The position numbers and the translations under genes were made by a program. The notes beneath the pieces are model-generated. The model had not been told where the DNA came from and ran no database searches. It was given only the letters and a program-made list of their open reading frames with translations. Of a stretch of 35,596 bases of DNA, positions 4,731 to 32,578 are shown in pieces; the stretch's first letter is position 1; the number at the start of each line of letters is the position of its first letter. Source of the stretch: a bacterium (GTDB lineage: Bacteria; Orphanbacterota; Orphanbacteria; Orphanbacterales; Orphanbacteraceae); the NCBI GenBank assembly GCA_025782575.1, contig JALGYY010000011.1, positions 1 to 35,596 of the forward strand, read 5' to 3'.

Positions 4731-4795
4731 TAGCCGGAAGTAGCGAGGCGCCGCCGGGGGAGGGAAGGCGCCCCGCCTTGCTCAGCTTCCGGCTA
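4731..4795 (-). promoter_or_regulatory. nested palindrome between feoB membrane subunit and PiT
   Basis: TAGCCGGAAG (4731-4740) is a perfect inverted match to CTTCCGGCTA (4786-4795). Inside, GGCGCC occurs at 4747-4752 and 4767-4772 and can pair. The outer right arm lies within the last codons of the FeoB gene. There is no T run after the stem in the minus direction, so it looks more like an mRNA-stabilising or attenuating structure than a standard terminator. Confidence 0.55.
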
Positions 4796-14120: not shown

Positions 14121-14530
14121 AAGGTCAGTATCGGTGGCGTTGGGTTCCCCGTCTCGGGGTCTCCCGTTCAATGCCACGATCATGGAAGGCACCCTTACGG
14201 GGACGCCACCTCCACTAAGCCACAACTATCTGATTTCAACGGACCACACCTCCTCTCGGGGCGTACGTCGATCGGCGAGACCCACCTCGCCCGGCACCCT
14301 TCTCCGCCCTGGGCCAGGGTGCCGCCGCAGAATTCACCGCGGACGATACACTTCGAAAGTAATCACGCCAAATGGACTTGTAAAGAGAAAATATGGCGAA
14401 TTGATTGTGGCGTCCGAAGCCCCGGTCAGAGACGGAATGTGGTATAATCAAAGTACTTCGCTCGCCCATGATGTCGGCTGTACTCCCCGAGCGAAGCGGT
14501 CGAATCCCATCAGCACTAGAGGTCTGTCAA
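14121..14530. other. divergent intergenic region with two further hairpins and a promoter
   Basis: No gene is supported. 14134-14177 folds as GTGGCGTTG / CAATGCCAC outside CCCCG / CGGGG. 14292-14324 is CGGCACCCT / AGGGTGCCG. On the minus strand a possible TTGGCG-N17-TATCGT promoter lies upstream of all hairpins (around 14345-14375). On the plus strand an extended -10 is at 14440-14448. The hairpins could form a structured leader for the PPOX mRNA or a small RNA. Confidence 0.4.
14440..14448 (+). promoter_or_regulatory. extended -10 promoter of the M43 protease gene
   Basis: TGGTATAAT is a consensus extended -10 (TG-N-TATAAT), about 80 bases before the TTG start at 14531. No good -35 is present, which is usual for extended -10 promoters. 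Confidence 0.6.
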
Positions 14531-15865
14531 TTGAGCAAGGTGAAACTCTACGCATGCGCCCTGATGGTTCTGGTCGGCGCATGCTGGTCGCCCGCGCTTC
14601 GGGCCGGCGACGGTCCGATCGAAATCAACGGTCTCAAGTTTGAGTCCTGGTCGGAATACACGCAGTCTGACTACTTCCGGAGCAATGGGAAGCGTTGCGG
14701 GTTCAACGCTCCTGAAGAGGAGAAAGATCCTTTTCAGGAATCCGGCGACTGCCCTCTCTATTCTACTAATCCGACAGCAGAGTATGACCCAGGTGACATC
14801 CTGACTCTTCAAGTTGTCGTTCATGTACTCGCCAGGAAAACCGGCGAAGGGGCTGTCCCCGATTCGCTCATTCACAGTCAGATCGATATTCTGAACGAAG
14901 ATTTCCTCGCGATCGCAGGGTCGAACGGAGAGGACGGAACGTACGGCGGGATCCAGTTCGTACTCGCCTCGGACGATCCCGACGGGAACCCGACCAACGG
15001 AATCACGCGTCACAGCAAGTATCTTTGGTTTCTGGACGCGGAGAATTACTGGGACCCACTCGCCTGGGATCCGAATCGTTACATTAATATCTATACCAAC
15101 CTGGCGAGCGGGTACCTGGGCTATGTTCCCTGGCTTCCACAGAACAGTCCGGTAGGGAGCAATGAAGATCGTATTGTAGTGCTTCACTCGGCGTTCGGCC
15201 GGAACGCGCCGATCGGCCCTCCATACGATCAAGGACGAACATTGACCCACGAAATGGGTCACTATTTAGGTCTCTGGCATACGTTCGACTTCGGCTGCGG
15301 GTCTGATAGCCTGCCTACCTGCTACACATCGGGCGATCGGATCTGTGATACGGAGAGCGAAGCGTCAAATCACTTCGGTTGCCCGGTTTCTTCTGCTACC
15401 TGCGATACACCGGACCCGATCCGGAACTACATGAACTACACCGATGATCTCTGCATGTGGGAATTCACGACCGAGCAGGTCCGCCGCATGCGCTGCACGA
15501 CCGAAGAGTACAGAGGGGACCTGGTTGACGTCGCGACTTCCGTCTCGGGCGGCTCTTCAGGCTCATCGGCCGGCGTCTTTCCGGTCCGTGCGGCGCTTCA
15601 TCTCGAGAACCTGCCGAACCCCTTCAATCCGGTCACAGAGATTCGGTACAGGATTCCGGAAGCGGGTCCGGTCCGGCTCGATCTCTTCAGTCCGTCCGGC
15701 AGGCTCGTTCGCACTCTTGTGAATGGTGTCCGGAACGGGGGGGATCACGCGATTCGCTGGGACGGCTCCGATAATGCTGGATTGCCCGTCGCCTCCGGCG
15801 TCTACTTCTCCCGGCTCCAGGCGGGTGGCGAGACGATTACGAAGCGCATGGCGCTGGTGAGGTAG
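14531..15865 (+). CDS. secreted M43 (pappalysin-like) zinc metalloprotease with sorting domain
   Basis: 444 aa. Start TTG 14531 follows AGAGGT (14518-14523); it gives signal peptide MSKVKLYACALMVLVGACWS..RA. The catalytic motif HEMGHYLGLWH spans residues 240-250 (HExxHxxGxxH, zinc ligands H240, H244, H250, catalytic E241). The downstream Met-turn is NYMNYTDD. Cys-rich segments (CGSDSLPTCY, CDTESEASNHFGC) match the M43B arrangement. Residues about 360-444 form an FlgD-like Ig domain with NLPNPFNPVTEIRY and SGVYFSRLQ...KRMALV, the type A C-terminal sorting pattern used by the type IX secretion system in FCB bacteria. It is probably a surface or secreted endopeptidase. The longer frame from 14405 adds a non-signal extension and includes the promoter, so it is not used. 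Confidence 0.9.
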   Translation: MSKVKLYACALMVLVGACWSPALRAGDGPIEINGLKFESWSEYTQSDYFRSNGKRCGFNAPEEEKDPFQESGDCPLYSTNPTAEYDPGDILTLQVVVHVLARKTGEGAVPDSLIHSQIDILNEDFLAIAGSNGEDGTYGGIQFVLASDDPDGNPTNGITRHSKYLWFLDAENYWDPLAWDPNRYINIYTNLASGYLGYVPWLPQNSPVGSNEDRIVVLHSAFGRNAPIGPPYDQGRTLTHEMGHYLGLWHTFDFGCGSDSLPTCYTSGDRICDTESEASNHFGCPVSSATCDTPDPIRNYMNYTDDLCMWEFTTEQVRRMRCTTEEYRGDLVDVATSVSGGSSGSSAGVFPVRAALHLENLPNPFNPVTEIRYRIPEAGPVRLDLFSPSGRLVRTLVNGVRNGGDHAIRWDGSDNAGLPVASGVYFSRLQAGGETITKRMALVR

Positions 15866-17475: not shown

Positions 17476-20388
17476 CTACCAAATCCCTCCGCCTGGCGGG
17501 GGTGCTCCACCGTTGCTAGGGGTTTCAGAAGAATCCGAGCAGGGATGAAATCCTTCCAGGCACCAATTACCCGCCTCGTTCCATGGAATCACGAATCGTT
17601 TCTCCCAGTCGTCTGCGTCAATCCCGAACGTTGTCAGGAATTCTTCTGTCGTCGTGATCTCCGGGAAGAAGCCGTTCAATGTCGGGTCAGGCCAGATCCA
17701 GCTTTCTACATCATCCGCTTCCCAGACGAGAACGGGATTGTAGACGGGACAGTTAATGATGAGGACGACACCATCTACGGAAATTGTTTCCGGGATGCAG
17801 GGGGAATCGCCAAAGTACCTCTTGTTTTCGTCCAGCGTAAAGAATCCGTCAAACTCGATCGCGATCTGCTGGAAACCGGAGTCCAGATTCTCAGAGAACC
17901 GGGAATGTGCTTCGTACACCCCGACCCAATCGGGCATTTGGGAGATGCTGTCGTAGTGCATGGCGACGTACCCCTCCATGAGATTGAGGATCAGTGTGTC
18001 GCCCGTAGCCGAGGTTTCGATGCTGTCACCAAAAGCAGTGGCCAGGAATTCATAGGTTCCGGAGTAGGTCCGCTGTTCCGAAACGGTTATATCGAAGAAT
18101 TCGACAATGCCGAAGTTAGACTCCGTCTCTGGGGTGGTCGGATCTTCCTCACTCTCACCTCCCCACGGCTCAATCTCGAACTCTACGCTATACGCAGGGA
18201 GGAGCGCTTTCCAGTCCTCGACGGGATCGGTGAATATGCGGTTTGCATTTACCATAAGCAGTGTGTGGGCGGTCGAATCTTTACCGTCCCAATTGTCCCA
18301 GCGAGAGGCCCCGACTGTGAGGGCTTCGCGTACCGGTTGCAGGTTGGCGCGGACAGAATCCAGATCAGCCTGGGAAAGAGAGTCGGGACCGATCTTGATC
18401 AGGTCGTCGTCCTGATTATCAATTTCCCGATCAAGTGATGTGATCGCCGAATCGACGAAGTCGATCGCATCGAGCGCAAGTGTTTGAGAGAGGAGCAGGT
18501 GATCCGCACCACCCGGTCTGAGCGTGAGCCAGTCACTTCCCGGTTTGAGTGCGTTATACAGGCTCAAACTATCATAGGCCGGGAAGGCGATTTCGTAGGA
18601 AACGGCGGCGTGAATCGCGGAAGCCAGGAGCGCAGAGGCGGCGCGAAGAGCACGAACATCGGTCTGGTCGATTTCGACCGGCTCTTCTTCGGGATCGCCC
18701 TGCATTCGGGGCGTTACAATATTCGTATAGTCATGAGCATCCACGAGCTTATCGAGGAAACCCATAGCAGCTTCGAGACGGGGCAGCCCGATCTCTTCCA
18801 GAACATCCTGGACTACGATGAGACTGGGGTCGACCCGCCGGAAAGACTGCTTGGAAGCGGCGATTAGTGTCATTGGCACGATGTCGAACGGAAGCTTGAA
18901 CGCTCCGGCACCGCCGGAGAACGAGAGAGGAATGCCGAGTGGTTTTTTGCCGGAAGACTGCACTGCGAACGGAACATTATCCTCCAGATACGTCTGCCAC
19001 TGATCGACAGCGTTCATCACTTCACTGTCGGTAGTGAACGCCAGGAGCACGGTGACGGCCGCCCCTAGGTTGGCGTCAAGGTGGTCCGGGTCACAGGCGA
19101 GCGCCTCGAAGTAGAGGTCGTAAGCGTCTTCAATGTCGGCGAGGTTGTAGTTCTCCTCGAAATTGTCAAAACCAGCCATGACAATCTCTTCCAGCCGCGC
19201 GTCTGCGAGAGCAACCAGGCTGTCGGCGCAGTCGAGCACGATATTCGACCAGAAAGCGGTTTCTCCAGCGCCATTCCGATTAATGGTCACAGGTTGCGTG
19301 CCGCCTGGTGCCGATGTCGTGTTGGAGCTGAACCACTCGGACATGGTGAGAGGCTCGCCGAGAGTCGTGTCCGACATTTCCTTGAAGAAATCGATCGTCC
19401 AGTCGGCCTCCTGCTGCCCTGAAACAATCCAGTCGTAGGCGACTGTTGCCGCAGCTCCTCCGGTAGAGATGATGGCGTCGGGCCAGTTGCCAAGGTCGCT
19501 GTAGTTGAATCCGAGGGAAACAAAAGTCTTGTTGGCTGAGAATGAGTTGTGAGACCCAACGAAATCCGAGCTCACATAATAGTAGGTCTTGCCGTTTCTC
19601 ACGGTCCAGGCGAGATCGCCGGAGAAGAGATCGTCCCTATATACAATGTCGGTAGCCTCGCTCCGCTCTTCACCTGTGGGAGTGTAGACCCTCTGGGGTG
19701 ACTGATTGGACGGCCAGGGGTTCCCGTGAGAATGGATGCGAACGATTCCGTACTCATCGAGTTCCGCGAATCGAGCTACTTTGCATTCACCATCCGTCAG
19801 AACATCAAACGGCTGGTATTTTGCAGCGGTCAGTGCAGACTCCGACTGCTGGATGACATCGTCGACTACGCCGGGTATGACGCTTTGCAGTTCTGAATAG
19901 ACCGGCGACATGTAGAGCGTCTTCTTGGACGATGGTATGTTGCCGGTCTTGCTCGATTGCCAAATGGGAGCAACTGGCAGTGCGGTCTTGCTCAAGACGG
20001 AGCTGTCATAGAATTCAGGATCTACAATGATCCCGCCGGTTACCAGCTTATCGTCACCGATCTTGTAGCGAATCCATATTCCCTGGCTTGATTTTCCCGC
20101 ACTTTCAATGAGTGGATCGCTCTGGGCGATGGTCAGAATGCTGTCGAGAGCATCTTCTGTGCCGAGACTGTCGATAAGTTCTGCCAGATCCATTCCAAGC
20201 GTGTCGAGGTCAGCGCTCCGTTCATTGCGTTGCCGGATCTCTGTTGTATCAGGCGGGGTAGTGTCATCATCATCGTCATCGCCAGGTGGATCGGTCGGGC
20301 CATCATCACCGCAACCAAAGACGAGGAGGCCGAGGGTTACGAGTGCAATGAAAGAGATGAGAAAGGCAAGGCGGAAGCGGGAAGCCAT
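17476..20388 (-). CDS. lipoprotein with C25/caspase-like pseudoprotease domain (long paralog)
   Basis: 970 aa. Lipoprotein signal with lipobox LVFGC (C26), then an acidic DDDDDDTTPPDTT spacer. Residues 95-345 resemble a gingipain/C25-type caspase-fold domain: KTLYMSPVYSE, then DEYGIVRIHSHG with H219/H221, YTPTGE, YYYVSSDFVGS, and TFVSLGFNYS followed by GGAAATVAYDW. In active relatives the LGxC position carries the nucleophile; here it is Asn295, so the domain is probably inactive. Residues 400-640 look helical and TPR-like; the remainder is beta-rich with a Pro/Gly tail (APPPGGGIW). AGGA precedes ATG 20388. It is divergent from a paralog at 20667. It may be an envelope binding or scaffold protein; the ligand is unknown. 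Confidence 0.7.
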   Translation of the reverse strand: MASRFRLAFLISFIALVTLGLLVFGCGDDGPTDPPGDDDDDDTTPPDTTEIRQRNERSADLDTLGMDLAELIDSLGTEDALDSILTIAQSDPLIESAGKSSQGIWIRYKIGDDKLVTGGIIVDPEFYDSSVLSKTALPVAPIWQSSKTGNIPSSKKTLYMSPVYSELQSVIPGVVDDVIQQSESALTAAKYQPFDVLTDGECKVARFAELDEYGIVRIHSHGNPWPSNQSPQRVYTPTGEERSEATDIVYRDDLFSGDLAWTVRNGKTYYYVSSDFVGSHNSFSANKTFVSLGFNYSDLGNWPDAIISTGGAAATVAYDWIVSGQQEADWTIDFFKEMSDTTLGEPLTMSEWFSSNTTSAPGGTQPVTINRNGAGETAFWSNIVLDCADSLVALADARLEEIVMAGFDNFEENYNLADIEDAYDLYFEALACDPDHLDANLGAAVTVLLAFTTDSEVMNAVDQWQTYLEDNVPFAVQSSGKKPLGIPLSFSGGAGAFKLPFDIVPMTLIAASKQSFRRVDPSLIVVQDVLEEIGLPRLEAAMGFLDKLVDAHDYTNIVTPRMQGDPEEEPVEIDQTDVRALRAASALLASAIHAAVSYEIAFPAYDSLSLYNALKPGSDWLTLRPGGADHLLLSQTLALDAIDFVDSAITSLDREIDNQDDDLIKIGPDSLSQADLDSVRANLQPVREALTVGASRWDNWDGKDSTAHTLLMVNANRIFTDPVEDWKALLPAYSVEFEIEPWGGESEEDPTTPETESNFGIVEFFDITVSEQRTYSGTYEFLATAFGDSIETSATGDTLILNLMEGYVAMHYDSISQMPDWVGVYEAHSRFSENLDSGFQQIAIEFDGFFTLDENKRYFGDSPCIPETISVDGVVLIINCPVYNPVLVWEADDVESWIWPDPTLNGFFPEITTTEEFLTTFGIDADDWEKRFVIPWNEAGNWCLEGFHPCSDSSETPSNGGAPPPGGGIW

Positions 20389-20666: not shown

Positions 20667-22781
20667 ATGGCTCCTCGATCCTGGCTCGATCGTGTCATGC
20701 CCCTGTTATTTCTCGCTGTTTTTGGAATGCTCATCGCTGGTTGCGGAGATGATGATGCTGATTCTCCTACTTCCACCCCGGTTGTGGATATCGAAGAGCT
20801 CGAGGGGCTCTCCACGCAACTGGCTGACCTGAACAATCAGTTGGACGGACTTCTCAATTCGTTGAGCTCGGAAGTGGCCGTAGACAGTCTGCTGACAATC
20901 CTATCCTCAAATCCAGCAATCGAGAGTGCCGGGAAGTCGAGTCAGGGGCTTTGGGTCAGATATCATGTCAGCAAGAATCGAACGGTAGCGGGAGCAATCA
21001 TCCTCGATCCTGAATTCTTTAGCAGCGACTCCCTCGGGAAGGGGAATCCGGTTTTCTCGACCGGCACCGCCCCTACAAAGGCACTGTCTCAGCCCACGTC
21101 CGTGAAGACGCTGTATATCGCTCCTGTTTACTCCGAGATGCAGGAGGTCATCGCCGGCGTAGTTGACAACGTTGTCGCGCAGGTGAATCCTGCGTTGCAG
21201 AATGCGGGCTATCAACCCTTCGAGTTATTGACAGACGACGATTGTACGGTTGATCTATTCGCGGAACTCGATACGTACGGAATTGTTCGCATCCATTCCC
21301 ACGGAAGTCCGTGGCCATCGAATGAGAGTACGCAAAGAGTGTATACCCCGACAGGGGAGGTTCGGAGCACTGGAACAGACGAGAAGTACTTCAATGATCT
21401 GATGTCGGGCAATCTTGCCTGGACGGTGCGAAACGGCCAGACCTACTACTATGTCAGTGCCGGGTTTGTAGGCTCCAGAAATAATTTCTCGGACGAAAAC
21501 ACGTTTGTCTCCCTCGGTTTCAGTTATGGCAGCGAAGGTGGCTGGCCCGATGCGGTCACCGTCCAAGGGGAATCCTCTGCAAGCACCGGTTTCGACTGGG
21601 TCGTTTCCGGGGATCAGGAGCGGGACTGGGCGATCGACTTCTTTACTTCGATGTGCAATACGGCGCTGGAAACCCCGATGACGATCGCCGATTGGTTCGG
21701 TTTGGACACCTATACCGCCCCCGGCGGAAGCCAGGTAGTGACCATGGCGTCTCACGGAGATGGAGCTACTACGTTCTGGTCAGTCGAGCTTGAAAGCGAC
21801 CTTGACGGCTCGTGGGCCGCGACCGTTATCGAGGGCTCACTCGATCCCCAGGGAAATCCACTCGATGTTGACGGCTCGGTCAGCACGATCGAATTCCGGT
21901 CGGACCAGACCTATACATGGTTTCTTCATGCCCCCCCATGGTTCGATGTGGACGGCAATGGAACCTACACTCACGATGGAAATACGATACAGCTCACAGG
22001 AATCATCAATGAGCTTGGTGTCTCCTCCATAGCCTATTCCGGAGGGGACAGTTTTACGTTTCTTGATGATGACGGCGATCGCTGGACCTATGAGCAGGCC
22101 GCAACAGGCGGCAGCACTGCATCTCCCATCAGTTCGATCGTGGTTGAGCCGGCCAGTCCCGTAGCGGATGTGGGGGATACGATTCAGTTTTCAGCGATGG
22201 CTTCGTTTGTCGATGGGAGTCAAGGTGATGTGACGGATCTTGTGGATTGGAGTGGTCCACCGGATGTCGTAGAGGTGGGAAATGGAGAGAGCGAGAAGGG
22301 CAGAGTCGTTGTTCTGATCCGGGCGACGGCTCCGGTTACTGCGCGAGACCCGGAGACCAAAGTACTAGCCAACGCAGTGTTTCGCCACACGGACCTCTAC
22401 TATCTGAGGATGGATAACATTCGGCTGAATAACAGAGGCTCGTCGGTTGAGGTATCTCCAGGTGAATTTGTTGAGGTTGTGGCGGATCACACACTCTGGA
22501 GCCGTGTCGGATGCTCTAGCTGTGTTGACTATATCGTAGTCGGCATTGAAGGCGACGCTCAAAGGGCGGTTGATCTCGGCCTTCCCGGCAATTTTCCAGG
22601 CGCAAGCGGAAGTGCAAGCTATCTGTTAACAGCACCGGAGGCGGCGGGGACCTATACGATCTATGCTCGCCTCGCGCCCGTCCTTTCGACGTCGGCAGCA
22701 ATTGGTGATTATGAATCTTTCTTTCCCGGGAGCAACGGCGATCGACCCTATATACCGTTGGGTACTATCGTGGTGGAGTGA
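20667..22781 (+). CDS. lipoprotein with C25/caspase-like pseudoprotease domain (short paralog)
   Basis: 704 aa; ATG 20667 with AAGGAGA upstream. Lipobox LIAGC (C26). Residues 90-345 match the long paralog closely over the caspase-like domain: KTLYIAPVYSE, DTYGIVRIHSHG (H210, H212), YTPTGE, AWTVRNGQTYYYVS, TFVSLGFSYG. The nucleophile position is Ser286, not Cys. After the domain the paralogs diverge: here a lipocalin-like strand-rich region (SWAATVIEGSLDPQG..., residues 375-480), a bacterial Ig-like (BIG2-type) segment starting ISSIVVEPASPVADVGDTIQFSA, and a C-terminal beta domain with CSSC. Divergent paralogs with the same front and different back domains suggest a shared binding module attached to different effectors or matrices. 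Likely anchored in the envelope; partner unknown. Confidence 0.7.
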   Translation: MAPRSWLDRVMPLLFLAVFGMLIAGCGDDDADSPTSTPVVDIEELEGLSTQLADLNNQLDGLLNSLSSEVAVDSLLTILSSNPAIESAGKSSQGLWVRYHVSKNRTVAGAIILDPEFFSSDSLGKGNPVFSTGTAPTKALSQPTSVKTLYIAPVYSEMQEVIAGVVDNVVAQVNPALQNAGYQPFELLTDDDCTVDLFAELDTYGIVRIHSHGSPWPSNESTQRVYTPTGEVRSTGTDEKYFNDLMSGNLAWTVRNGQTYYYVSAGFVGSRNNFSDENTFVSLGFSYGSEGGWPDAVTVQGESSASTGFDWVVSGDQERDWAIDFFTSMCNTALETPMTIADWFGLDTYTAPGGSQVVTMASHGDGATTFWSVELESDLDGSWAATVIEGSLDPQGNPLDVDGSVSTIEFRSDQTYTWFLHAPPWFDVDGNGTYTHDGNTIQLTGIINELGVSSIAYSGGDSFTFLDDDGDRWTYEQAATGGSTASPISSIVVEPASPVADVGDTIQFSAMASFVDGSQGDVTDLVDWSGPPDVVEVGNGESEKGRVVVLIRATAPVTARDPETKVLANAVFRHTDLYYLRMDNIRLNNRGSSVEVSPGEFVEVVADHTLWSRVGCSSCVDYIVVGIEGDAQRAVDLGLPGNFPGASGSASYLLTAPEAAGTYTIYARLAPVLSTSAAIGDYESFFPGSNGDRPYIPLGTIVVE

Positions 22782-22787
22782 TTCCTG

Positions 22788-22816
22788 TTGTTGAGTCGGT
22801 CCGTTCCTGATAGAAT
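22788..22816 (+). promoter_or_regulatory. promoter of the kinase/CsgG-like operon
   Basis: TTGTTG (22788-22793), 17-bp spacer, TAGAAT (22811-22816). It begins 7 bases after the stop of the short pseudoprotease gene and leaves a leader of about 125 bases before ATG 22952. Confidence 0.6.
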
Positions 22817-22860
22817 CAAGTGTGAACAAACGGGGGGCTCAAAATACCTGATCCCTCGCT

Positions 22861-22891
22861 CCCCGGGTGTCGGGGATGCGATAAGACCCCG
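22861..22891 (+). promoter_or_regulatory. alternative stems in the operon leader
   Basis: CGGGG at 22871-22875 can pair with CCCCG at 22861-22865 or with CCCCG at 22887-22891 but not both, the simplest form of a mutually exclusive leader fold. No T run follows, and no known riboswitch is recognised. Confidence 0.3.
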
Positions 22892-22951
22892 CCGCAAAAG
22901 TTAGTCCGGGATCGGGCTTGGCCGTTGCTTGTCGGAAAGATTGCACGGATC

Positions 22952-24220
22952 ATGCTTCCCTTCAGTTTTCCCCGAATTCTCATCGCAGTCACATTGATAC
23001 CCACATTCCTCGGATGCGCGTCGAATCTTCACGACCAGAATACGGACAGCCCGAACGAGGACAATCCCGTTGCCGCACGAGAAGCCGGCCTGGCCTGTCT
23101 CGATGCTCAGGACTTCGACTGCGCGATCGAGAATCTCAAACGTGCCGATGCGGCTGGGGTTGCCGGTGGTGCGGGTCTTGTTGCGCTAGGCACTGCTTAC
23201 GAAGCCAAAGGTCTTCGAGAGAAAGCTCTCGAGACATATTCCCGCTATCCGGAGCTTGGGTTTCTATCCCGGCACCGCAGAAAAATGGCGAGAAGAGTAA
23301 GGTCCATCGTTCGGGAAGACATACTGTCGCAAGTTGACTCACTGGGGGGCCGAAGTGCACGGCCAGGTGCAATTGCGGTACTTCCACTCCAGATGAACAC
23401 AAACGATGACCGGCTAAGGCCTCTCGCTGCTGGCCTGTCCGAGTGGCTTGTTACGGATCTATATCATGTTCGCGACCTCGATATTTTGGAACGGATCCGT
23501 GCCGAGGCTGTCTTGAAAGAGCTCGAGTATGGCGACCTCTCTCTCGTTGATGCGACTTCAGCTCCCCGTGTGGGGCACATGCTCGGCGCAAGCAGAATAG
23601 TGAGTGGAAGTGTGATCGATCTCGGGAGCGAGCGGCTCCGAATCGATCTCTTCTCGTGGGATGTCGAGGTGGGGCGACAAGAAGTCGCTGTGAGTGCTGA
23701 GGGAAAGAGCGCGGCATTCTTCGAGCTCGAAAAGAATCTTGTTTTCGGTCTCATTGACGGACTCGGAATTGAGCTGACCGATAGAGAAAGGGCGGAAATC
23801 GAGAGAGTACCAACCCGCTCCCTCGCGGCTTTTCTTGCCCACGCGGCGGGGCTCGAGGCGGATCGGAGAGAAGAATACGAGCTGGCCGATCAGCTCTACG
23901 AAGAGGCGGCGGAACTGGATCCCGTTGCGGCAGAGAATTCAGAGGTGCCCCTGGCCAAACAGCCGGAAGCAGAATCAGACGGACAAGATGACGGGCAGGA
24001 AGATCTGGCTGAGGAATCTACGGCCGATCCGGAGAGTGAGGTGGCGGACATCGGGCTGGACGACGGCTTCGGGGCGATTCTGGATGAAACGATGAATGCG
24101 TTGAGCGGTGAATCCTGGGGCGAAAACATCATCGACAGCCGACCCGACCGGCCGGAGGAGATCGAGCTCGTTCCGGATCCCCCACCCCCGCCTCCACCAC
24201 CGAAGTCAGGGGGAAGGTAG
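22952..24220 (+). CDS. TPR and CsgG-like lipoprotein, first gene of the kinase operon
   Basis: 422 aa from ATG 22952 (or 431 from TTG 22925; neither has a strong ribosome binding site). Lipobox FLGC, cysteine at residue 22. Residues 40-110 form one or two TPR-like helical repeats (EAGLACLDAQDFDCAIENLKRA). Residues about 130-290 resemble the CsgG/FlgO-type domain: GAIAVLPLQ, LAAGLSEWLVTDL, DLDILERIRAEAVLKEL, GHMLGASRIVSGSV. It is followed by another TPR-like stretch, an acidic linker and a tail of eight prolines. CsgG-like lipoproteins work at the outer membrane, in secretion or assembly of surface structures. Its stop is one base from the barrel gene's ATG. A second CsgG-like protein is encoded three genes later in the same operon. 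Confidence 0.7.
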   Translation: MLPFSFPRILIAVTLIPTFLGCASNLHDQNTDSPNEDNPVAAREAGLACLDAQDFDCAIENLKRADAAGVAGGAGLVALGTAYEAKGLREKALETYSRYPELGFLSRHRRKMARRVRSIVREDILSQVDSLGGRSARPGAIAVLPLQMNTNDDRLRPLAAGLSEWLVTDLYHVRDLDILERIRAEAVLKELEYGDLSLVDATSAPRVGHMLGASRIVSGSVIDLGSERLRIDLFSWDVEVGRQEVAVSAEGKSAAFFELEKNLVFGLIDGLGIELTDRERAEIERVPTRSLAAFLAHAAGLEADRREEYELADQLYEEAAELDPVAAENSEVPLAKQPEAESDGQDDGQEDLAEESTADPESEVADIGLDDGFGAILDETMNALSGESWGENIIDSRPDRPEEIELVPDPPPPPPPPKSGGR

Positions 24221-24221
24221 A

Positions 24222-25310
24222 ATGAGAGCATTACGCCCGTTCCATCTCCTCGTCCTGTGCCTTCTTGTTTGGCAGACCGGGATCGCCGGTGCTGCTCCGG
24301 CGCCTCGGATCAGTCTGAAAACCTACTACGAAGATTGGGATCTTGGTACCGGGTCACTCAGCGAAACATCGACATTTCTTGCGGCCACGTTTCACAGGGG
24401 GCGTGCCACCCGTCTGGATCTGCAGGTGGGCCATGTTTCCGCGGACCTGGAAAACGGGGGCGATCTGTCTGGTTTGACGAATCTCCGGTCCAGGGTATCG
24501 CACCGGTTGAATGATCGCCTGGCAGTTCGAATCGGTTTGAGTCTTCCCACCGGCAAGACAGGGCATAGCGGTGACGAAAGAGAGGTTCTCCGGCAATTGT
24601 CCGATCGCCTGCTCGGCTTTCGCGGATATCGTCTGGGTGAGGGGATGGATTTCGAATTCGGCACGGCCTACTCGGCGCCGGCCGGGCCGGTCACCATCGG
24701 GGGTGGGATCGGATACCATTATAAGGGGGAGTATGAGCTTCTGGAGGATGACGACCAATACTCTCCCGGCAGCCAGCTCCTTGCAACGCTCGGATTCGAC
24801 ATGGGAAACGATATCTGGACTTACCGAATCAGTTACGTGCGAGCACTCTACGGAACCGACAAGCTTAGCGATGTTGAGCTGTTTCGAGTCGGTCCCCGTA
24901 ACGACCTGCGGGGAACAGTCGAGTATCGAGCGGGACGTTGGACTACGCATGGCTCTCTTCAATACATCCAGCATGGAAATGACAAACTTCGAGTGGTTGA
25001 TGGATTGATCGAAGAAAATGAGAACAGCAACCGTGCGGAATTCTACATCAGCTCGAATACGGAATTCATGCTGACCAGAAGAGTGTGGCTCAGGGCAACG
25101 ATCGGAGGGCGGGTCTTTTCGGAAAGTGAAAACGGTCTGGCGAGCGCCCGCCGATTTGATTTAGGAGCAGGCTCGCGGATCAGGCTGAGCCGGACGTACT
25201 GGCTTCAAGTCGGTGGTCGCTATTCCCATGCGGAGCTCGACGTTTCGGGTGAAGCCAGTCAGGATCTGAATGGTCTGATGGCCTCCCTGGGAATCGAAGT
25301 GAGGCTGTGA
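24222..25310 (+). CDS. outer-membrane beta-barrel protein of the kinase operon
   Basis: 362 aa from ATG 24222, with GGGGGAAGG just upstream (the longer frame from 24108 lies within the previous gene). A signal peptide ends GIAGA. Alternating strands run through the whole chain (LSETSTFLAATFHRGRATRL, LAVRIGLSLPTGKTG, VTIGGGIGYHYKG, RVWLRATIGGRVF, YWLQVGGRYSHAEL) and the end is LMASLGIEVRL. The SLPTGKTG turn resembles barrels of the outer-membrane transporter group related to phenol-degradation meta-pathway proteins. Its stop overlaps the kinase start by four bases. It may provide the outer-membrane channel for the operon's assembly; the cargo is unknown. Confidence 0.7.
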   Translation: MRALRPFHLLVLCLLVWQTGIAGAAPAPRISLKTYYEDWDLGTGSLSETSTFLAATFHRGRATRLDLQVGHVSADLENGGDLSGLTNLRSRVSHRLNDRLAVRIGLSLPTGKTGHSGDEREVLRQLSDRLLGFRGYRLGEGMDFEFGTAYSAPAGPVTIGGGIGYHYKGEYELLEDDDQYSPGSQLLATLGFDMGNDIWTYRISYVRALYGTDKLSDVELFRVGPRNDLRGTVEYRAGRWTTHGSLQYIQHGNDKLRVVDGLIEENENSNRAEFYISSNTEFMLTRRVWLRATIGGRVFSESENGLASARRFDLGAGSRIRLSRTYWLQVGGRYSHAELDVSGEASQDLNGLMASLGIEVRL

Positions 25311-26731
25311 GTATGTCCAATAGACACAACGTCGATCGAATCATGCCGAAACTGCTTCAGCTTCTCGGAAGCGATTACAAGAATGTTGAAGTGCTGAGCC
25401 TTGCGGGTGGAATGAACCCGGTTTTCTCGGCTCACCATCCGTCGTTGGGCCGTCATGTGGCTATCAAGGTGCATGATCATGGCGAAAACCCGAGCGAGAG
25501 AGACTATGGCCGGTTCCGCCGCGGGGCGGAAGCTCTCGGAAGCCTCGAGAGCCACCCCAATATCTGTCCGGTTTTCGACTGGAAATCCGATCCTGAACTG
25601 GGAATCAGCTGCCTCATCATGATGCTGGTAAGAGGACGCTCGTTGTCGGAGCGGTTGAAAGAAGGCCCTCTTTCAATCGATGAGACGGTCACCCTCGCCG
25701 AACAGATGTTGAGCGCACTCAAACACACCCACGGACACGGAATAATCCACCGGGATATCAAGCCCGGAAATATTCTGCTCCCGGTGTCCGGTCCTGCGCA
25801 GCTCACCGACTTCGGTCTCGCTAAGGGCGAGGAAGGGATGGATATCACAAGATCAGGGGCCGGGGCCGGCACGCCGGCATATATGAGCCCCGAACAGGCC
25901 TGGTTCAAGAAACCTGACAGGAGAACAGACATCTACTCGTTGGGCCTGGTGCTGGCCGAGTGTCTGACGGCTCAGAGGCTCTTCGTGGAAACGGATTTTG
26001 TTGAACTCTTGCGGAAGAAGCGGGAAGAACCCACACCGAATCTCGATCTTCCAAGCAGTTGTCCCTCTGGCCTCGTCTCGATGCTTGAGATTATGAGCAG
26101 GGCTGAGCCGGACGATCGACCGGCTGATGCGAGTGGCGTTTTGACGATGCTTACCAAGCGTGATGCGTCTCTCGGAGCGTCCAGGCAAGCGGGCGTCGTC
26201 GTCGATATTTCTGAGCTCCCTACAGTGAAGATCAAGAGGTACAGGAGCTGGTGGGTTGGAGGAGCAATTCTGGCGATATGGGCCTTCCTGGCGTTTGCCC
26301 TGGACCCGTTGGTCGGTGCCATCTCTCAGAAGGGGAACCGTAATGGGACACCGGAGGAATCAATTTTCGCAAGAGTTTCGGACCAGGAAGGGGAGGGGCA
26401 CAAACCTGAGAAGGTAGTACAGGAATCCCCCCTGGATGGTCAGTCGGACCCGGAACCCCGCGCCGCATTTCGCAACAAATCGGATCCTCCGCCTCCGCAG
26501 ATGGGCTATATGACGCTGAAAATCAGTCTCGATGGGGGGATCGCCGTGCATCCTCAGATCCTGATCGATGGCAAGCCCACAGGGGAAACGGCCCCAGCCA
26601 ATTTGCGATGGAAAGTCAAGAGAGGAGATTCTCTTCGAGTTGAAGTCCGGCACCGTGACTATCAATTTGTTCAGGGATCTCATGTCATTGTCGGGGGTGT
26701 GGATAGTACCGCCTCAATCGTCTTCCGATAG
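25307..26731 (+). CDS. transmembrane Ser/Thr protein kinase with PEGA-like tail
   Basis: 474 aa; GTG 25307 (GTGA overlap with the barrel gene) or ATG 25313. The kinase domain, about residues 25-290, has all key parts: VAIK with K54, HRDIKPGN with catalytic D150, DFG with D168, and GTPAYMSPE. The Gly loop is LAGGMNPVFSA, shorter in glycine than usual. A membrane helix spans about 315-337. The outer part (338-474) has a Pro-rich linker and a PEGA-like beta domain (GYMTLKISLDGGIAV... ILIDGKPTGETAP). Topology should be kinase in the cytoplasm and PEGA in the periplasm, so it could sense envelope or cargo status. Possible substrates include the FHA-domain activator at 10644, which would read phosphothreonine; that link is inference. 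Confidence 0.92.
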   Translation: MSMSNRHNVDRIMPKLLQLLGSDYKNVEVLSLAGGMNPVFSAHHPSLGRHVAIKVHDHGENPSERDYGRFRRGAEALGSLESHPNICPVFDWKSDPELGISCLIMMLVRGRSLSERLKEGPLSIDETVTLAEQMLSALKHTHGHGIIHRDIKPGNILLPVSGPAQLTDFGLAKGEEGMDITRSGAGAGTPAYMSPEQAWFKKPDRRTDIYSLGLVLAECLTAQRLFVETDFVELLRKKREEPTPNLDLPSSCPSGLVSMLEIMSRAEPDDRPADASGVLTMLTKRDASLGASRQAGVVVDISELPTVKIKRYRSWWVGGAILAIWAFLAFALDPLVGAISQKGNRNGTPEESIFARVSDQEGEGHKPEKVVQESPLDGQSDPEPRAAFRNKSDPPPPQMGYMTLKISLDGGIAVHPQILIDGKPTGETAPANLRWKVKRGDSLRVEVRHRDYQFVQGSHVIVGGVDSTASIVFR

Positions 26732-26754
26732 CCTATTCCGATGAGGAGGCTCCC

Positions 26755-27768
26755 ATGATTCGTAATGTCCCGCACATCGTCGCGATCACCCTCGTGTTCC
26801 TCAGTTTCACGCCGGCATCGGCACAAACGGATCGAAACGATCCCCTCTCAAAGAGTCCCACACCAACGACTTTGAGAACGGCCACCGAGGCCTATTACGG
26901 GGCAGATTTCGCGGATGCACTTCGCATGACGGATTTATTGCTGGACGATGCAGAACTCGGTCGAGATCAGCGCATTGAGTGCTTTCTCCTTCAGGCGTTC
27001 AGCTACCTGGCCAGGGGTAACGATCAGTCGGCTCGCGAATCGATTCGGAAGGCGTGGGCTGTGAATCGAGAGCTGGAAGTCGATCCGGAGGAAGTCCCCC
27101 CCCGCTTCATGCACGCCTACTACGATGTGATGCAGGAGATAGAAAAGTCTATCGTTACAAACACGCTCGCGGTACTCATGTTTCGGAACAACTCGGTTAC
27201 CCAGCATGATGAGCTCGACCCTCTGTCGCAGGGAATTGCCGACATGTTTCTGACTCAGCTCCGCTCTAACTCGACAATGCAGATCGTCGAGCGAGAGCGA
27301 ATCGGCTATATCCGGCGTGAGATGCAGCTTCAGGATTCGGACATGTTCGATAAGGGATCGGCTGTCCGGTTCGGCCGGCAACTGGGAGTTCACTACCTGA
27401 TCATGGGGAGCTTTGCCAGGATCGGGAAGGATGTCCGGCTCGACTGCCGTCTCGTTCGGACGGAAACGAGCCTTGTGGTTGATGCAGAGAGTCGGAAGGG
27501 GAAAATGGACGATCTCATGGAGCTGATCGACGAGCTTGCCAAGTCGGTTGCCGACAACCTGGGCAAGAGTAAAAAGGGTGCTGAGGCTTCGAAGATTAAT
27601 TATGAGGCACTTCTATTCTATTCCGAGGGTCTCGCCCATCTCGATCTTGGGGAGTATCACGAAGCATTTATCGATTTCGATCGGGCCACCAAGGCCTCGC
27701 CGGACTACGCCAAAGCCGAACGCCGGCTGAAACAGCTGGCCCCATTGGTTGCCAATCGCGCCGACTGA
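26755..27768 (+). CDS. second TPR and CsgG-like secreted protein
   Basis: 337 aa; ATG 26755 with GAGGAGG upstream and 23 bases after the kinase stop. A signal peptide ends PASA, with no lipobox, so periplasmic. Residues 40-115 are TPR-like (TEAYYGADFADALRMTDLLL). Residues 130-265 match the CsgG/FlgO-type fold: TNTLAVLMFRNN, LSQGIADMFLTQL, MQIVERERIGYIRREMQL, LGVHYLIMGSFARIG. Residues 280-330 are a final TPR unit (LLFYSEGLAHLDLGEYHEAFIDFDRATKASPDYAKAE, written here only to identify it as TPR; key residues are Gly, Tyr and Ala at repeat spacing). Domain order mirrors the first CsgG-like protein, so the two may form a lipidated and a soluble partner in one envelope complex. Confidence 0.75.
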   Translation: MIRNVPHIVAITLVFLSFTPASAQTDRNDPLSKSPTPTTLRTATEAYYGADFADALRMTDLLLDDAELGRDQRIECFLLQAFSYLARGNDQSARESIRKAWAVNRELEVDPEEVPPRFMHAYYDVMQEIEKSIVTNTLAVLMFRNNSVTQHDELDPLSQGIADMFLTQLRSNSTMQIVERERIGYIRREMQLQDSDMFDKGSAVRFGRQLGVHYLIMGSFARIGKDVRLDCRLVRTETSLVVDAESRKGKMDDLMELIDELAKSVADNLGKSKKGAEASKINYEALLFYSEGLAHLDLGEYHEAFIDFDRATKASPDYAKAERRLKQLAPLVANRAD

Positions 27769-27792
27769 TCGGCCTGGCAAGGGAGACACGAT

Positions 27793-30216
27793 ATGGTTCG
27801 CAGTTTCTGCCCCCGCGTCCGGATAGTCGCGCTTAGAGTGGTGGCCGTGACCCTCGGGATATGTTTGCTCCCTGCGGGTGCGAGTGCTCGATTCGCACGA
27901 GAGACGGTAGCCGTGGAAGTTGCAGTGAGCGGATTCATTGCTGCATCGAAGGACGGAAATCTGCACGTCGTATGGGAATCCGGTGGGGCGGAGAGCCTGG
28001 TTCGCTATGCCTCTAATCCGGGAGGCACATGGAGCGGCGAGACCGTAGCGATTGCAACGGCCGGCCGTCAGGTGGGTGTGTCCGTCGACTCATTCGGTGC
28101 GCCCCAGATTGTGTTTGCCCGGGACGGGCTCTCGAGTATCCACCATGCGACCGGTGGGGGAGGTCTCTGGATCGCACCCGTTATTGATGCTGGTGAATTT
28201 ACCGGAAATCAGCGTATCGCCCTCGATGGTGTGGGCGTCCCTCATGTGGCTTACTCGACGACATCGGATGCTCGATACGCCACGTTGAGTGCCGGCAATT
28301 GGCTGATTGATACGTTGAGTAGTGAGTCGGGCGACGTGGGGTGGATCGCTGTGGCTGTCGAGATGGATGGCACTCCTCACGTTGCTTTCGGCACTGACAT
28401 GTTGAGGTACGGAAAAAAGACGAACGGCACATGGGATTTTGAAACAGTTGATTCCAGTCTGGTCCAAGGAGGAGGGCCGTCGCTCGCCTTATCTGCAGAT
28501 GGTGCCGCGCACATTTCATACTGGCGGAATTCATCCGAAGATCCAGAGATCCGAATACTCAAGTACGCGGACAATTCGACAGGGGCGTGGGACCTGGAGA
28601 CTGTACTCGAGTCATCCGCTCTAGTCATGCCGTCATCGGGGAGTCCCGGGTTTGATCTTGATACGTTCGGCGATCCTCAGATTGCCTTCGTGGACAGTTT
28701 GAACGGCCGGATTCTCTATGCCGGCAGGATAGCCGGAGAGTGGCGGTGCGAAACCGCCATCGATCTTGAAGGCCAACAATCGGTACTTTTCGGTTTGGCC
28801 GTCGGAACAGACAGTCGGCCTCATATTGTTTTTTTCGACACGTCACTAGGTGAGATCGTACATGCATTCGGTGATGAGATCGGCGCCCCTAAAACATTCT
28901 CTCTATCCGGGTCCATTCCGGACCGTCGTTACTTCATGCTTTCGCTGCCGGTGGCTTTCCCGGATAGAACCAGGCTCTCATCGGCCCTGGCATCGCTCGG
29001 TCCATACGGACTTCAGACTTGGCGTGGCTTCGGGTTTTCCGCCGACACACTTACGGAAGATCCCTTTGTGGAAGTGGGAAGAGGGTATCTGGTCGCAAGT
29101 GCGACTACGCAGAGCGCGGTCGATCTGACAGGTCTTCCACTCCCCAAGACAGCACGAGTTGATCTGGCGGTGGGCTGGAACATGGTAGGAGTTCCATCTC
29201 ACACAATCGAATTCGACTGGGCGGATGTGCTGGTCCAGTCAGACACGGGCATGGTACCGATAGCCGATTCTGCATCAACCAGTGAAATTCTGGATCGTTC
29301 GATCTGGTGGTATCAAGATGATACGAACGATTGGCAAAATGATGATGCGTATGAAGTCCGTTCACTCGCCACGGCTACTTCGCTCGAGAACCGGTGGGGC
29401 GGGTATTACCTGTTTGCCAAAAAAGCTACATCGATCGAATTTCCTGCAGGCAGCACAATTTCAGGAAAGAGGTCCTTAGCTCCTGCTCTTTCGTCTTCCA
29501 TGACCGGGGACTGGCAATTCCACATCAGTGCTAGAGGAGATGGAGTACGCTCGGGAGATGTGATTCTTGGCGTTCAGTCGGGGAGCTCTCACGGTGCTGA
29601 TCCGGGTGATGTCATGAAGCCCCCATCGGTTGCTGCGAGTTTGTCACTCTCGATCAGGCAGGAAGAGGCCCACTGGCCCGACTATATGCACGCTTTCGCC
29701 CCCCCTGATGCATCTGAGTACAGATGGAGGCTCAGGCTGACTGGAATCGCGGGCACTGCCCGGATTGTCTGGACGGATGTGCAGTCGATTCCCCTCGATT
29801 ACAATGTCTACCTGGTTGACAGCGACCGCGCGGTCGCCATCGATCTTCGATTGTCCGAAAGCCACAGCATGGTTCTTTCGAATTCCGAGAGGCACTTTGA
29901 GGTTCAGGTTTCGAGACGGAAGTTCGAAGGAACCATTATCACCGCCCCCGCGGCGTGGTTGGAGCTGGACGGGGCTCATCCGGTGAGAGAATCTTTCGGT
30001 CTTCGTTTTGAAACGCCGGTAGCAGGACTCGTGGAGGTCATCCTCTATAACATCGTGGGGCGGGAGATATCCACACTCTACAGAGATCGGCTTGATCGAG
30101 GGATCCATGGACCGATCCAGGCCCCGAATAAGGGAGATCTCGCCTCCGGGATCTACTTCGTGCAGCTCAGGTATCCGGGAGGGAGTGTCTCGAAGAAAGC
30201 AGTGATCATGCCTTGA
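27793..30216 (+). CDS. large secreted beta-propeller protein with type A sorting domain
   Basis: 807 aa; ATG 27793 after GGGAG, 24 bases behind the previous stop. A signal peptide ends AGASA. Residues 35-385 contain about six or seven repeats of the type G-x-W-x-x-E-T ... D-G-x-P-H-V-A-Y ... L-R-Y-A, as in beta-propeller blades. Residues 390-700 are beta-rich with WNMVGVPSHTIEF and GYYLFAKK, a pattern common in secreted FCB proteins. The C-terminal ~85 residues (FGLRFETPVAGLVEVILYNI...SGIYFVQLRY...KKAVI) are an FlgD-like type A sorting domain. It is probably the cargo or surface subunit of the operon. Reading order and spacing show it is co-transcribed with the kinase and CsgG-like genes. Confidence 0.8.
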   Translation: MVRSFCPRVRIVALRVVAVTLGICLLPAGASARFARETVAVEVAVSGFIAASKDGNLHVVWESGGAESLVRYASNPGGTWSGETVAIATAGRQVGVSVDSFGAPQIVFARDGLSSIHHATGGGGLWIAPVIDAGEFTGNQRIALDGVGVPHVAYSTTSDARYATLSAGNWLIDTLSSESGDVGWIAVAVEMDGTPHVAFGTDMLRYGKKTNGTWDFETVDSSLVQGGGPSLALSADGAAHISYWRNSSEDPEIRILKYADNSTGAWDLETVLESSALVMPSSGSPGFDLDTFGDPQIAFVDSLNGRILYAGRIAGEWRCETAIDLEGQQSVLFGLAVGTDSRPHIVFFDTSLGEIVHAFGDEIGAPKTFSLSGSIPDRRYFMLSLPVAFPDRTRLSSALASLGPYGLQTWRGFGFSADTLTEDPFVEVGRGYLVASATTQSAVDLTGLPLPKTARVDLAVGWNMVGVPSHTIEFDWADVLVQSDTGMVPIADSASTSEILDRSIWWYQDDTNDWQNDDAYEVRSLATATSLENRWGGYYLFAKKATSIEFPAGSTISGKRSLAPALSSSMTGDWQFHISARGDGVRSGDVILGVQSGSSHGADPGDVMKPPSVAASLSLSIRQEEAHWPDYMHAFAPPDASEYRWRLRLTGIAGTARIVWTDVQSIPLDYNVYLVDSDRAVAIDLRLSESHSMVLSNSERHFEVQVSRRKFEGTIITAPAAWLELDGAHPVRESFGLRFETPVAGLVEVILYNIVGREISTLYRDRLDRGIHGPIQAPNKGDLASGIYFVQLRYPGGSVSKKAVIMP

Positions 30217-30272
30217 CCCTCTACAGGCCCGGCCCACCAGGCCAGAACCCCCAAATACCTGCCTTATCTCTA

Positions 30273-30301
30273 TTGCACCCTTCGCTCCCCCAGTTTATAG
30301 T
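30273..30301 (+). promoter_or_regulatory. promoter of the desaturase gene, apparently leaderless
   Basis: TTGCAC (30273-30278), 17-bp spacer, TATAGT (30296-30301). The ATG at 30309 lies 7 bases after the -10, where transcription should start, and no ribosome binding site is present. Confidence 0.65.
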
Positions 30302-30308
30302 TCCTCTT

Positions 30309-31184
30309 ATGGAAGCTCACGCAAAAGAGAAAGAGACCGTAAAGCCCATCGCCCCGGCACCCGTATTCCGCTTCGATGAGATCAAGTGGACCCATATGAC
30401 TGCTGTCGGGATTCTTCACATCGGGTGCCTGTTTGCACCGTTCTTCTTCTCGTGGAGTGCCGTCATTGTAGCGGCTGTTCTCTACTGGGTGGTCGGTGGG
30501 CTGGGGGTCACCCTCGGATATCATCGGTTGCTCACCCACAGGAGCTTCGAGACTCACCCTGTGATTCGTTATGCGCTGACGATCTTCGCGACCATGGCCT
30601 ATCAGGGAGGACCGATTCAGTGGGTCGGAAACCATCGGATGCATCACAAGCATTCCGATACCAATGAAGATCCTCATTCGCCGAAGCACGGCTTCGCCTG
30701 GGGCCACATGTTGTGGGTCGTCACCAAGGATCATCTGCGGCGGGACGCCAAGGTATTTGCAAAGGACCTCAAGAGAGAACCGGGCATGGTATTTATCAAT
30801 AAGTATTTCTATATGCCTCAGGTGATTCTCGGTGTCATTCTCTTTTTGATCGGCGGGTGGTCGTGGGCCATCTGGGGGATCGCGGTGCGCACCGTTGTGG
30901 CTTACCATGGCACGTGGCTGGTCAATTCCGCCTCTCACACATGGGGCTACCGGAATTTCGAGACCAACGAAGGTTCAACGAATAACTGGTGGGTGGCCAT
31001 GGTCTCATGGGGAGAAGGATGGCATAACAACCATCATGCTCATCAGAGGTCGGCCCGCCATGGCATGCGCTGGTTCGAGTTCGACGTGACATGGCTCACA
31101 ATCCGATTCATGAAGATGGTCGGCCTCGCCCGAAAAGTATATGTTCCGGACGTCGACTTCAATTCCAGGCCCCCGGCGAAGTAG
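30309..31184 (+). CDS. acyl-lipid / acyl-CoA fatty acid desaturase
   Basis: 291 aa from ATG 30309, a membrane di-iron enzyme that introduces a double bond (delta-9 type) into fatty acyl chains using O2 and an electron donor. The three histidine boxes are HRLLTH, HRMHH and HNNHH; four membrane helices are arranged in two pairs. WGEGWHNNHH and the following WFEFDVTW are typical of this family. No cytochrome b5 domain is fused. The ORF is open to 30213, but that start overlaps the previous gene and has no signal. The sulfatase gene overlaps the end by up to 94 bases. Use of O2 indicates at least occasional oxic conditions. No fatty-acid regulator is adjacent. Confidence 0.9.
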   Translation: MEAHAKEKETVKPIAPAPVFRFDEIKWTHMTAVGILHIGCLFAPFFFSWSAVIVAAVLYWVVGGLGVTLGYHRLLTHRSFETHPVIRYALTIFATMAYQGGPIQWVGNHRMHHKHSDTNEDPHSPKHGFAWGHMLWVVTKDHLRRDAKVFAKDLKREPGMVFINKYFYMPQVILGVILFLIGGWSWAIWGIAVRTVVAYHGTWLVNSASHTWGYRNFETNEGSTNNWWVAMVSWGEGWHNNHHAHQRSARHGMRWFEFDVTWLTIRFMKMVGLARKVYVPDVDFNSRPPAK

Positions 31185-32578
31185 CCATCGGCATCCGGCG
31201 ATTCGCCAGGCTGTGGCTGCTGGCTGTCACTATTATTCCGACCCTCTCGTGTTCTCCCGCATCTACTGATCATCCGAATATCATACTGGTTGTGCTCGAT
31301 ACCGTTCGCCGTGACCATACGGGGATCGGACCGCGTGAGCCGGCGGTCCCCGGCCTGACACCCAACCTCGACCGATTGGCCCGGGAGGGGACGGCATTTG
31401 TGAACGCATGGTCGACGGCGCCGTGGACCGTGCCTGCCCACGCCTCCCTGTTTACAGGTGAACTACCATCGGTTCATGGGTGTACGAGCCGATCCATCCG
31501 GTTCCGGACGTCACTCCCCACGCTGGCGGAGATTGCGGTCGAAGCCGGATATGAAACGGCGGCGTTTTACAGTAACCCCTGGCTGACTGACGGCCTCACC
31601 GGACTTCTGCGGGGTTACGAAACGCAGTACTCCTCTCCATTCGATCAGCCGGAGGTCCGGGGGAACGATCAGGGGGGGCGACAGACAGTGGAGTCACTCC
31701 GGAACTGGCTCGCGGGTCGCGACGACGATCGTCCGTTCTTCGCGTTTGTCAGCTTTCTCGAGGCTCACCTTCCCTACAATCCCGAGGGGGATTACCCGCC
31801 GGATGCTGTGATCCCGTCGGACTGGGTGAATGAGTACAATGCCGGCCTTCACCGACCCGAAGAGCAGGATTGGAGTAAGCTGCGTTCGCTCTATGGCGGT
31901 GATGTCCGATTTGCCGACCGGTTTCTGGGCGACATGATTGATCTGCTGATAGAGAAAAGTCTGCTTGAAGACTGCATCGTGATCGTCACATCGGACCACG
32001 GGGAGAATCTCGGCGAGTACCGTTTTCTGGAACATCAGTTCGGCCTGCAGGAGACCTTGCTCGCCATTCCGCTTCTGATCCGCGCGCCCCATGACGGTTT
32101 TCCCCCGGGCCGGGATAAACGCCCGGTGATAATCACCGATCTTTTCCCGACGATTCTGGAGTGGTTCGGGCGGGCGAATGAGGGGCGTGCTTCTGCAAGC
32201 CGTTCCTTGCTCGACGATGCCGGGTCATCCATGAGGCCGGTCATGGCGGAGTATGGCGGGCCACCCCGGTCGTTGTTGAATCTTCTTCGGCGGATGAACC
32301 CCGATCTTGATGATAGAGAACGTGAAGTGGCGTTCGTTTCGGTTCGCGAGGGAAGTTGGAGGCTCACTGCCGGGAGCGATGGCTCGATAGCTCTGCATGA
32401 TCTCGATTCCGATCCTCTTCAGCGGGAGAACCGGGCGGAGATGGAGCCGGATCAGGTGAATAGACTGACGCAGTATCTGCTGAGGCCTGGCGGACAGCAA
32501 AATCTTTCGGAAGAAGAGGTCGTCGAAGTTGATGAAGAAACGAAGCAGAGGCTTCGCTCACTCGGCTACGCCGACTGA
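31091..32578 (+). CDS. sulfatase-superfamily lipoprotein hydrolase
   Basis: 495 aa if started at ATG 31091. The core starts NIILVVLDTVRRDHTG, holds the active-site loop TAPWTVPAHASLFTG, SDHGENLGEYRFLEHQFG for metal binding, and ends with RLRSLGYAD, a common tail in this family. The loop has Thr at the nucleophile position rather than Cys/Ser of formylglycine sulfatases, as in phospho-transferring relatives, so it may cleave or transfer phosphoryl groups. A lipobox TLSC with basic IRRFARLW before it lies about residue 54. Between ATG 31091 and that signal there is no other ATG, GTG or TTG, so the true start is either the ATG inside the desaturase gene, giving a 34-residue extension, or a rare codon such as ATC near 31187. 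Probably co-expressed with the desaturase. Confidence 0.8.
   Translation: MAHNPIHEDGRPRPKSICSGRRLQFQAPGEVAIGIRRFARLWLLAVTIIPTLSCSPASTDHPNIILVVLDTVRRDHTGIGPREPAVPGLTPNLDRLAREGTAFVNAWSTAPWTVPAHASLFTGELPSVHGCTSRSIRFRTSLPTLAEIAVEAGYETAAFYSNPWLTDGLTGLLRGYETQYSSPFDQPEVRGNDQGGRQTVESLRNWLAGRDDDRPFFAFVSFLEAHLPYNPEGDYPPDAVIPSDWVNEYNAGLHRPEEQDWSKLRSLYGGDVRFADRFLGDMIDLLIEKSLLEDCIVIVTSDHGENLGEYRFLEHQFGLQETLLAIPLLIRAPHDGFPPGRDKRPVIITDLFPTILEWFGRANEGRASASRSLLDDAGSSMRPVMAEYGGPPRSLLNLLRRMNPDLDDREREVAFVSVREGSWRLTAGSDGSIALHDLDSDPLQRENRAEMEPDQVNRLTQYLLRPGGQQNLSEEEVVEVDEETKQRLRSLGYAD

Follow-up and report, generated by a model that had tools for sequence, protein, structure and literature searches.

We describe here an unannotated outer-membrane gene pair, A and B, which codes for a TPR-containing lipoprotein with a CsgG-fold domain and for a predicted 16-stranded beta-barrel, and which recurs in several little-studied phyla. 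It is an ancient pair and forms the core of the gene set, usually together with a large secreted protein, while a second CsgG-like protein (D) and a membrane Ser/Thr kinase (K) are add-ons, since most A-B loci have neither. We favour, tentatively and on comparative grounds, the suggestion that A-B is a module of the outer membrane which anchors or exports a large surface protein and is monitored by D and K.

The analysed stretch of 35,596 nucleotides (the window) corresponds to contig C22 in a 95% complete genome of 4.88 Mb, which was grouped with Candidatus Eisenbacteria (same-family genomes JAJCZU01 and JAJRWB01). The first-pass annotation had pointed to five tightly spaced co-directional genes behind a single promoter, and its observations were largely right, the promoter excepted. 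The list of open reading frames confirms A, B, K, D and a large exported protein, E, all on the plus strand, with junctions of +1, -4, +23 and +24 bases. At the place proposed for the promoter (22788-22816) nothing was recovered by a consensus scan, which gave no plus-strand sigma-70-like site in 22600-31400, where such sites are scarcer than in shuffled sequences (2 versus 4.1). The operon may continue past E into a desaturase gene (ORF from 30213, with an internal ATG at about 30309). Although the folds of the proteins are known, neither a family for B nor a described system with this gene set turned up in the libraries and open papers that were searched; a published description of the set was not found among open-licence papers.

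Predicted products of the operon

A (22952..24220) is an outer-membrane lipoprotein with the lipobox FLGC, whose Cys22 is nearly invariant among 25 homologues. According to its AlphaFold2 model (pLDDT 77), an alpha/beta domain is enclosed between two TPR regions and is followed by a proline-rich disordered tail. D (26755..27768) also carries TPRs and has a signal peptide without lipobox, so that it is probably a soluble periplasmic protein, unlike its lipoprotein counterparts in related Eisenbacteria. Both had been called CsgG-like, and both pass the Pfam CsgG threshold of 20.8 bits, A with 23.7 bits (3.5e-5) and D with 40.4 bits (2.7e-10). In a tree of the CsgG domain the A proteins are split from the D proteins (support of the D clade 0.97); D of the window belongs to this clade, and A of the window groups with the other A proteins.

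The CsgG curli channel possesses two transmembrane beta-hairpins that form a 36-stranded pore. In every CsgG-like member tested the Pfam match ends at about position 97-111 of 210, leaving the hairpin half of the profile unmatched, and the A model contains no CsgG-type transmembrane hairpins; we therefore reject A as a curli pore, and the halfway-ending match argues, at the level of sequence, against such a role for D too. The resemblance thus holds for the domain and not for a curli-type pore. CsgG and HfaB, the curli and holdfast anchor (PMC6707917), are alike to our loci in placing a CsgG-fold lipoprotein beside a surface protein, and differ from them in these hairpins and in that a separate barrel is present here.

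Foldseek neighbours of the A model are TolB-N, GNA1162, LpoB, FlgT, CsgG and PelC. With the LpoB, TolB-N and FlgT group A shares the alpha/beta fold, but A and D stay below the cut-offs of the curated LpoB and TolB models, and the TPR context and the gene neighbours are different. D also gives an LpoB match of 1.5e-6 and a FlgO match just under the cut-off (2.8e-4). NCBIfam T9SS_PorE does not match window A, and relatives reach 15 and 11 bits against a cut-off of 600, in the TPR part only; against PDB sequences the A profile draws mostly TPR proteins, an uninformative outcome. Two A relatives (L086 and L088) have a PG_binding_1 domain inserted within the CsgG domain, which supports a possible link of A to the cell wall.

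The barrel announced for B (24222..25310) is borne out by its AlphaFold2 model (pLDDT 89, pTM 0.82), built from an alignment of 23 homologues, which predicts 16 long strands of 8-16 residues, joined by short turns on the periplasmic side and by longer loops outside. Loop 3 (residues 108-142), which in the model includes a short helix, contains four of the seven positions that are invariant across phyla (P109, G111, G139 and G141) and is therefore probably the functional part of B. B belongs to no Pfam or NCBIfam family, gives nothing significant in a PDB sequence search, and has no match to TIGR03519 or Pfam PorP_SprF at E<=1; its identification with a known T9SS barrel was accordingly rejected. 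The best 50 Foldseek matches of the B model are generic porins and FadL only. In the second A-B copy of the window genome (L082:12609-13836, contig G000:C17) B is split by a frameshift, either a sequencing error or a pseudogene.

The main structural rival to the anchoring module comes from the PelB-PelC exporter, which combines a 16-stranded barrel bearing TPRs with a twelve-membered lipoprotein ring (PMC12141448). A matches PelC by fold and B has the same number of strands, and A-B might be imagined as an exporter in which a CsgG-fold lipoprotein ring with TPRs feeds the barrel with a polysaccharide or another polymer. In our loci, however, the TPRs are on the lipoprotein rather than on the barrel, the gene set also comprises a kinase and another CsgG-like protein, and PelB-type barrels do not appear among the 50 top-ranking Foldseek hits of B. 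Neither polymer synthesis genes nor a recurrent synthase or glycosyltransferase were recognised among the A-B neighbours examined, part of which were run through Pfam, and those neighbours that recur are proteins, which leaves polymer export improbable.

K (25307..26731) is a Ser/Thr protein kinase (Pfam Pkinase, 1.4e-34) with one transmembrane helix at about 321-339 by hydropathy and a tail beyond the membrane, as had been annotated. The PEGA-like nature ascribed to this extracytoplasmic tail was not recovered in Pfam even at E<=10, and HHalign aligns it weakly, with a probability of 30%, to the genuine PEGA repeats that related kinases possess; in the related Eisenbacteria K-D cassette each kinase shows three clear matches to PEGA. 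Of the marks of a PASTA/PEGA-type sensor kinase, K has the catalytic domain and the single helix, while PEGA is under the threshold and the PASTA kinase equivalog scores 185 bits against a cut-off of 450. PADLOC yielded only generic kinase similarity, and a defence system was rejected on this ground.

Linkage of A-B and recurrence of the larger set

A and B are immediate neighbours at 55 of the 57 loci whose surroundings are intact, two loci cut by contig ends being left out, from Eisenbacteria, KSB1, Poribacteria and Gemmatimonadota (13/13 loci in Eisenbacteria, 12/13 elsewhere with A as the query, and 30/31 further ones with B as the query). The two genes usually overlap by 4 bases, and in the two loci where they are parted (L096 and L241) one large secreted protein stands in between. 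Such a linkage, broken only by a large secreted protein, supports the anchor or export model. Gemmatimonadota hold B in 45 of 121 genomes.

The first-pass annotation had regarded the five genes as one candidate system. The exact order A-B-K-D-E was found in the window genome only, and A-B-K-D in one other Eisenbacteria genus (G001, locus L081), where the K-D cassette follows directly after A-B. In Gemmatimonadaceae, nonetheless, the five kinds of components occur together a separate time, at 16 loci, as a block of A, B, a large lipoprotein and D with the kinase gene oriented divergently from D; the kinase is present in 16/16 and the lipoprotein family in 15/16, with median identities of about 50% for kinase and barrel and 31% for the lipoprotein. 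These loci represent one family and one lineage and not 16 independent events, and the outer flanking genes vary among many of them. The persistence of the block supports the anchoring model. What stands of the one-system view is thus the A-B linkage and the recurrence of the block, whereas the kinase and D are missing from most A-B loci. The outcomes named beforehand as fatal to that view, a set conserved in no relative or genes placed solely in kinase-free operons, were not observed.

It could be argued that an A-B pair, a pair of kinase and CsgG-like genes and the gene of a tailed protein became neighbours in the window by chance, as the exact order is confined to one genome, and about 37 kinase matches and at least 148 genes with T9SS tails make such neighbours common there. 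The 16 Gemmatimonadaceae loci largely refute chance, A-B-K-D recurs in L081, both pairs lie within about 10 kb in G002, and D, otherwise rare, stands beside A in several phyla; we consider this explanation very improbable. A and D occur together in Desulfobacteria, KSB1, SB10, L097 and Gemmatimonadaceae. Within Eisenbacteria the K-D cassette is also found apart from A-B (G000:C35, G002 and G005).

Window K has no special affinity with the Gemmatimonadaceae kinases, as unrelated ones give equal or better scores, and a shared origin of the two is therefore not supported. Consequently, the kinase link to A-B may, judging from these scores, be convergent and due to repeated recruitment, and this weighs against the proposed module.

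Some related arrangements should be mentioned. Cassettes L077, L078, L079 and L081 consist of a PEGA kinase followed by a CsgG-like lipoprotein; small proteins starting with KIGGTPPPG come after K-D in three of the four, and a caspase-like C14 peptidase adjoins that of L079. In Desulfobacteria (L113:3645-6771 and other loci) an A-D pair is followed by an exported protein of 375 aa with weak DUF6175/DUF3313 similarity and no B-type barrel is found at these loci, which are a relative of the system, differently built.

The main functional rival of the anchoring model gives A-B a general role in the outer membrane, as a maintenance or porin pair in which an LpoB/TolB-like coupling of wall and outer membrane goes together with a channel; its surface-protein and kinase neighbours would then reflect local operon history and be neither substrates nor regulators. 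This rival owes its place to one branch of Gemmatimonadota, which keeps A-B alone, with no cargo gene, in the housekeeping context of yebC, ruvC and ruvA; this likewise weakens the anchoring model. A-B pairs adjoining yebC, in many cases with ruvC and ruvA as well, were recorded in Gemmatimonadota at L229, L230, L233-L236, L238, L239 and L248. The TolB-N and LpoB matches of the A model, and Eisenbacteria loci of the C11 type, which have no tailed neighbour, speak for the same explanation. Against it are the five-component block, intact in 16 loci despite changing flanks, and the presence of several A-B copies within one genome, each beside its own large secreted protein, and we hold the maintenance function to be rather unlikely.

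Neighbouring surface proteins and a possible anchoring module

E (27793..30216) is a large exported repeat protein, and its annotated sorting tail (about 30001-30207) was confirmed as a borderline case: TIGR04183 gives 23.0 bits against a cut-off of 23 in the genome scan and 18.7 bits in the protein scan, the Pfam cut-off not being reached either, and the tail resembles the C-termini of many proteins. It may be a beta-propeller with seven blades, judging from seven sequence repeats that can be read by eye and from its resemblance to other repeat proteins. Since T9SS tails occur about once per 30 kb in the window genome, the position of E beside A-B is by itself weak evidence.

Surface proteins, either T9SS-tailed or of repeat type, adjoin A-B in three of four Eisenbacteria locus types, namely T9SS-tailed proteins that carry fn3 repeats (C7, G003 and G004, and G002:C1 by position and size) or ASH/HYDIN-type Ig repeats (C17, G001 and G002:C10), and E in the window. 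By our own estimate, the chance of a tailed neighbour at three of four A-B loci in the window genome is about 0.03. Tails being so common, we grade this as moderate support for a cargo role. It is strengthened by L096, from another lineage, where the protein between A and B is a tailed Vps10/BNR-propeller protein, and by the Gemmatimonadaceae lipoprotein, which carries InlB-type and Ig-like repeats. Both the surface neighbours and the L096 propeller support the anchor or export model. It is supported further by the presence of SprA, the T9SS translocon component, over its cut-off in 7/7 genomes, the window genome included, while none of the seven has a PorP/SprF barrel over cut-off and the sole TIGR03519 trace in the window genome (contig C21) is below it.

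We propose that A would lie under the B barrel at its periplasmic side and tie it to the cell wall, and that the pair would take up, anchor or gate a single large protein that is exposed at the surface and encoded alongside. In the window this cargo would be E, routed through the type IX translocon by means of its tail, and in Gemmatimonadaceae the Ig/InlB-repeat lipoprotein. D may act as a second CsgG-fold periplasmic subunit and, together with the bitopic K, may have joined as a sensor in some lineages; the extracytoplasmic tail of K would then sense the state of the A-B-D complex or of the cargo and give a phosphorylation signal inside the cell. The earlier suggestion that the set could assemble and monitor a surface structure is in part supported by these data and belongs to the same conditional level. 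Its widest form, a so far undescribed trans-envelope system spanning phyla, in which cargo is displayed by a dedicated 16-stranded barrel together with two CsgG-fold proteins and the kinase reads the complex from the periplasm, we find doubtful; if true, it would mean outer-membrane-to-cytoplasm signalling by a eukaryotic-like kinase.

Type A T9SS signals in Bacteroidota use PorV and no dedicated barrel. The tail of E is type A-like, which weakens the anchoring model. The nearest comparison is with the PorE-PorP-cargo complex and operons of Bacteroidota type IX secretion (PMC9143113, PMC12618676), five of which, with neighbouring cargo, are present in F. johnsoniae (PMC12618676). Similar to these PorE-PorP/SprF-type operons for type B CTD cargo, our loci bring together a TPR-containing, outer-membrane-associated periplasmic protein, a dedicated barrel and a T9SS cargo, and a cell-wall link is again suggested, here by the PG_binding domain in two A relatives. 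They are unlike in several respects: no PorP/SprF model recovers B, A contains a CsgG-fold domain and stays below the PorE cut-off, the tail of E resembles type A signals, D and the kinase are extra components, and in some sets a lipoprotein replaces the tailed protein. The set is a candidate answer to two questions: by what means bacteria devoid of PorP/SprF barrels keep T9SS or lipoprotein adhesins at the surface, and which periplasmic signal is read by the numerous orphan membrane Ser/Thr kinases found in these phyla.

Other genes of the window

Upstream of A lie two divergently oriented genes for paralogous exported proteins, 970 and 704 aa long (17476-20388 on the minus and 20667-22781 on the plus strand; phmmer 2e-123); neither protein has a significant Pfam family, and the gene of the shorter one ends 170 bases before A. 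A sigma-54 activator with an FHA domain (10554-12476, plus strand) might possibly be a reader of kinase-phosphorylated proteins, its link to K being conjectural. A ferrous iron transport locus on the minus strand (4782-8232) codes for a FeoB-type Gate/FeoB_C protein and a DtxR-type repressor fused to FeoA domains, and the plus-strand gene at 14405-15865 for an M43-type metallopeptidase that bears a FlgD_ig/T9SS tail.
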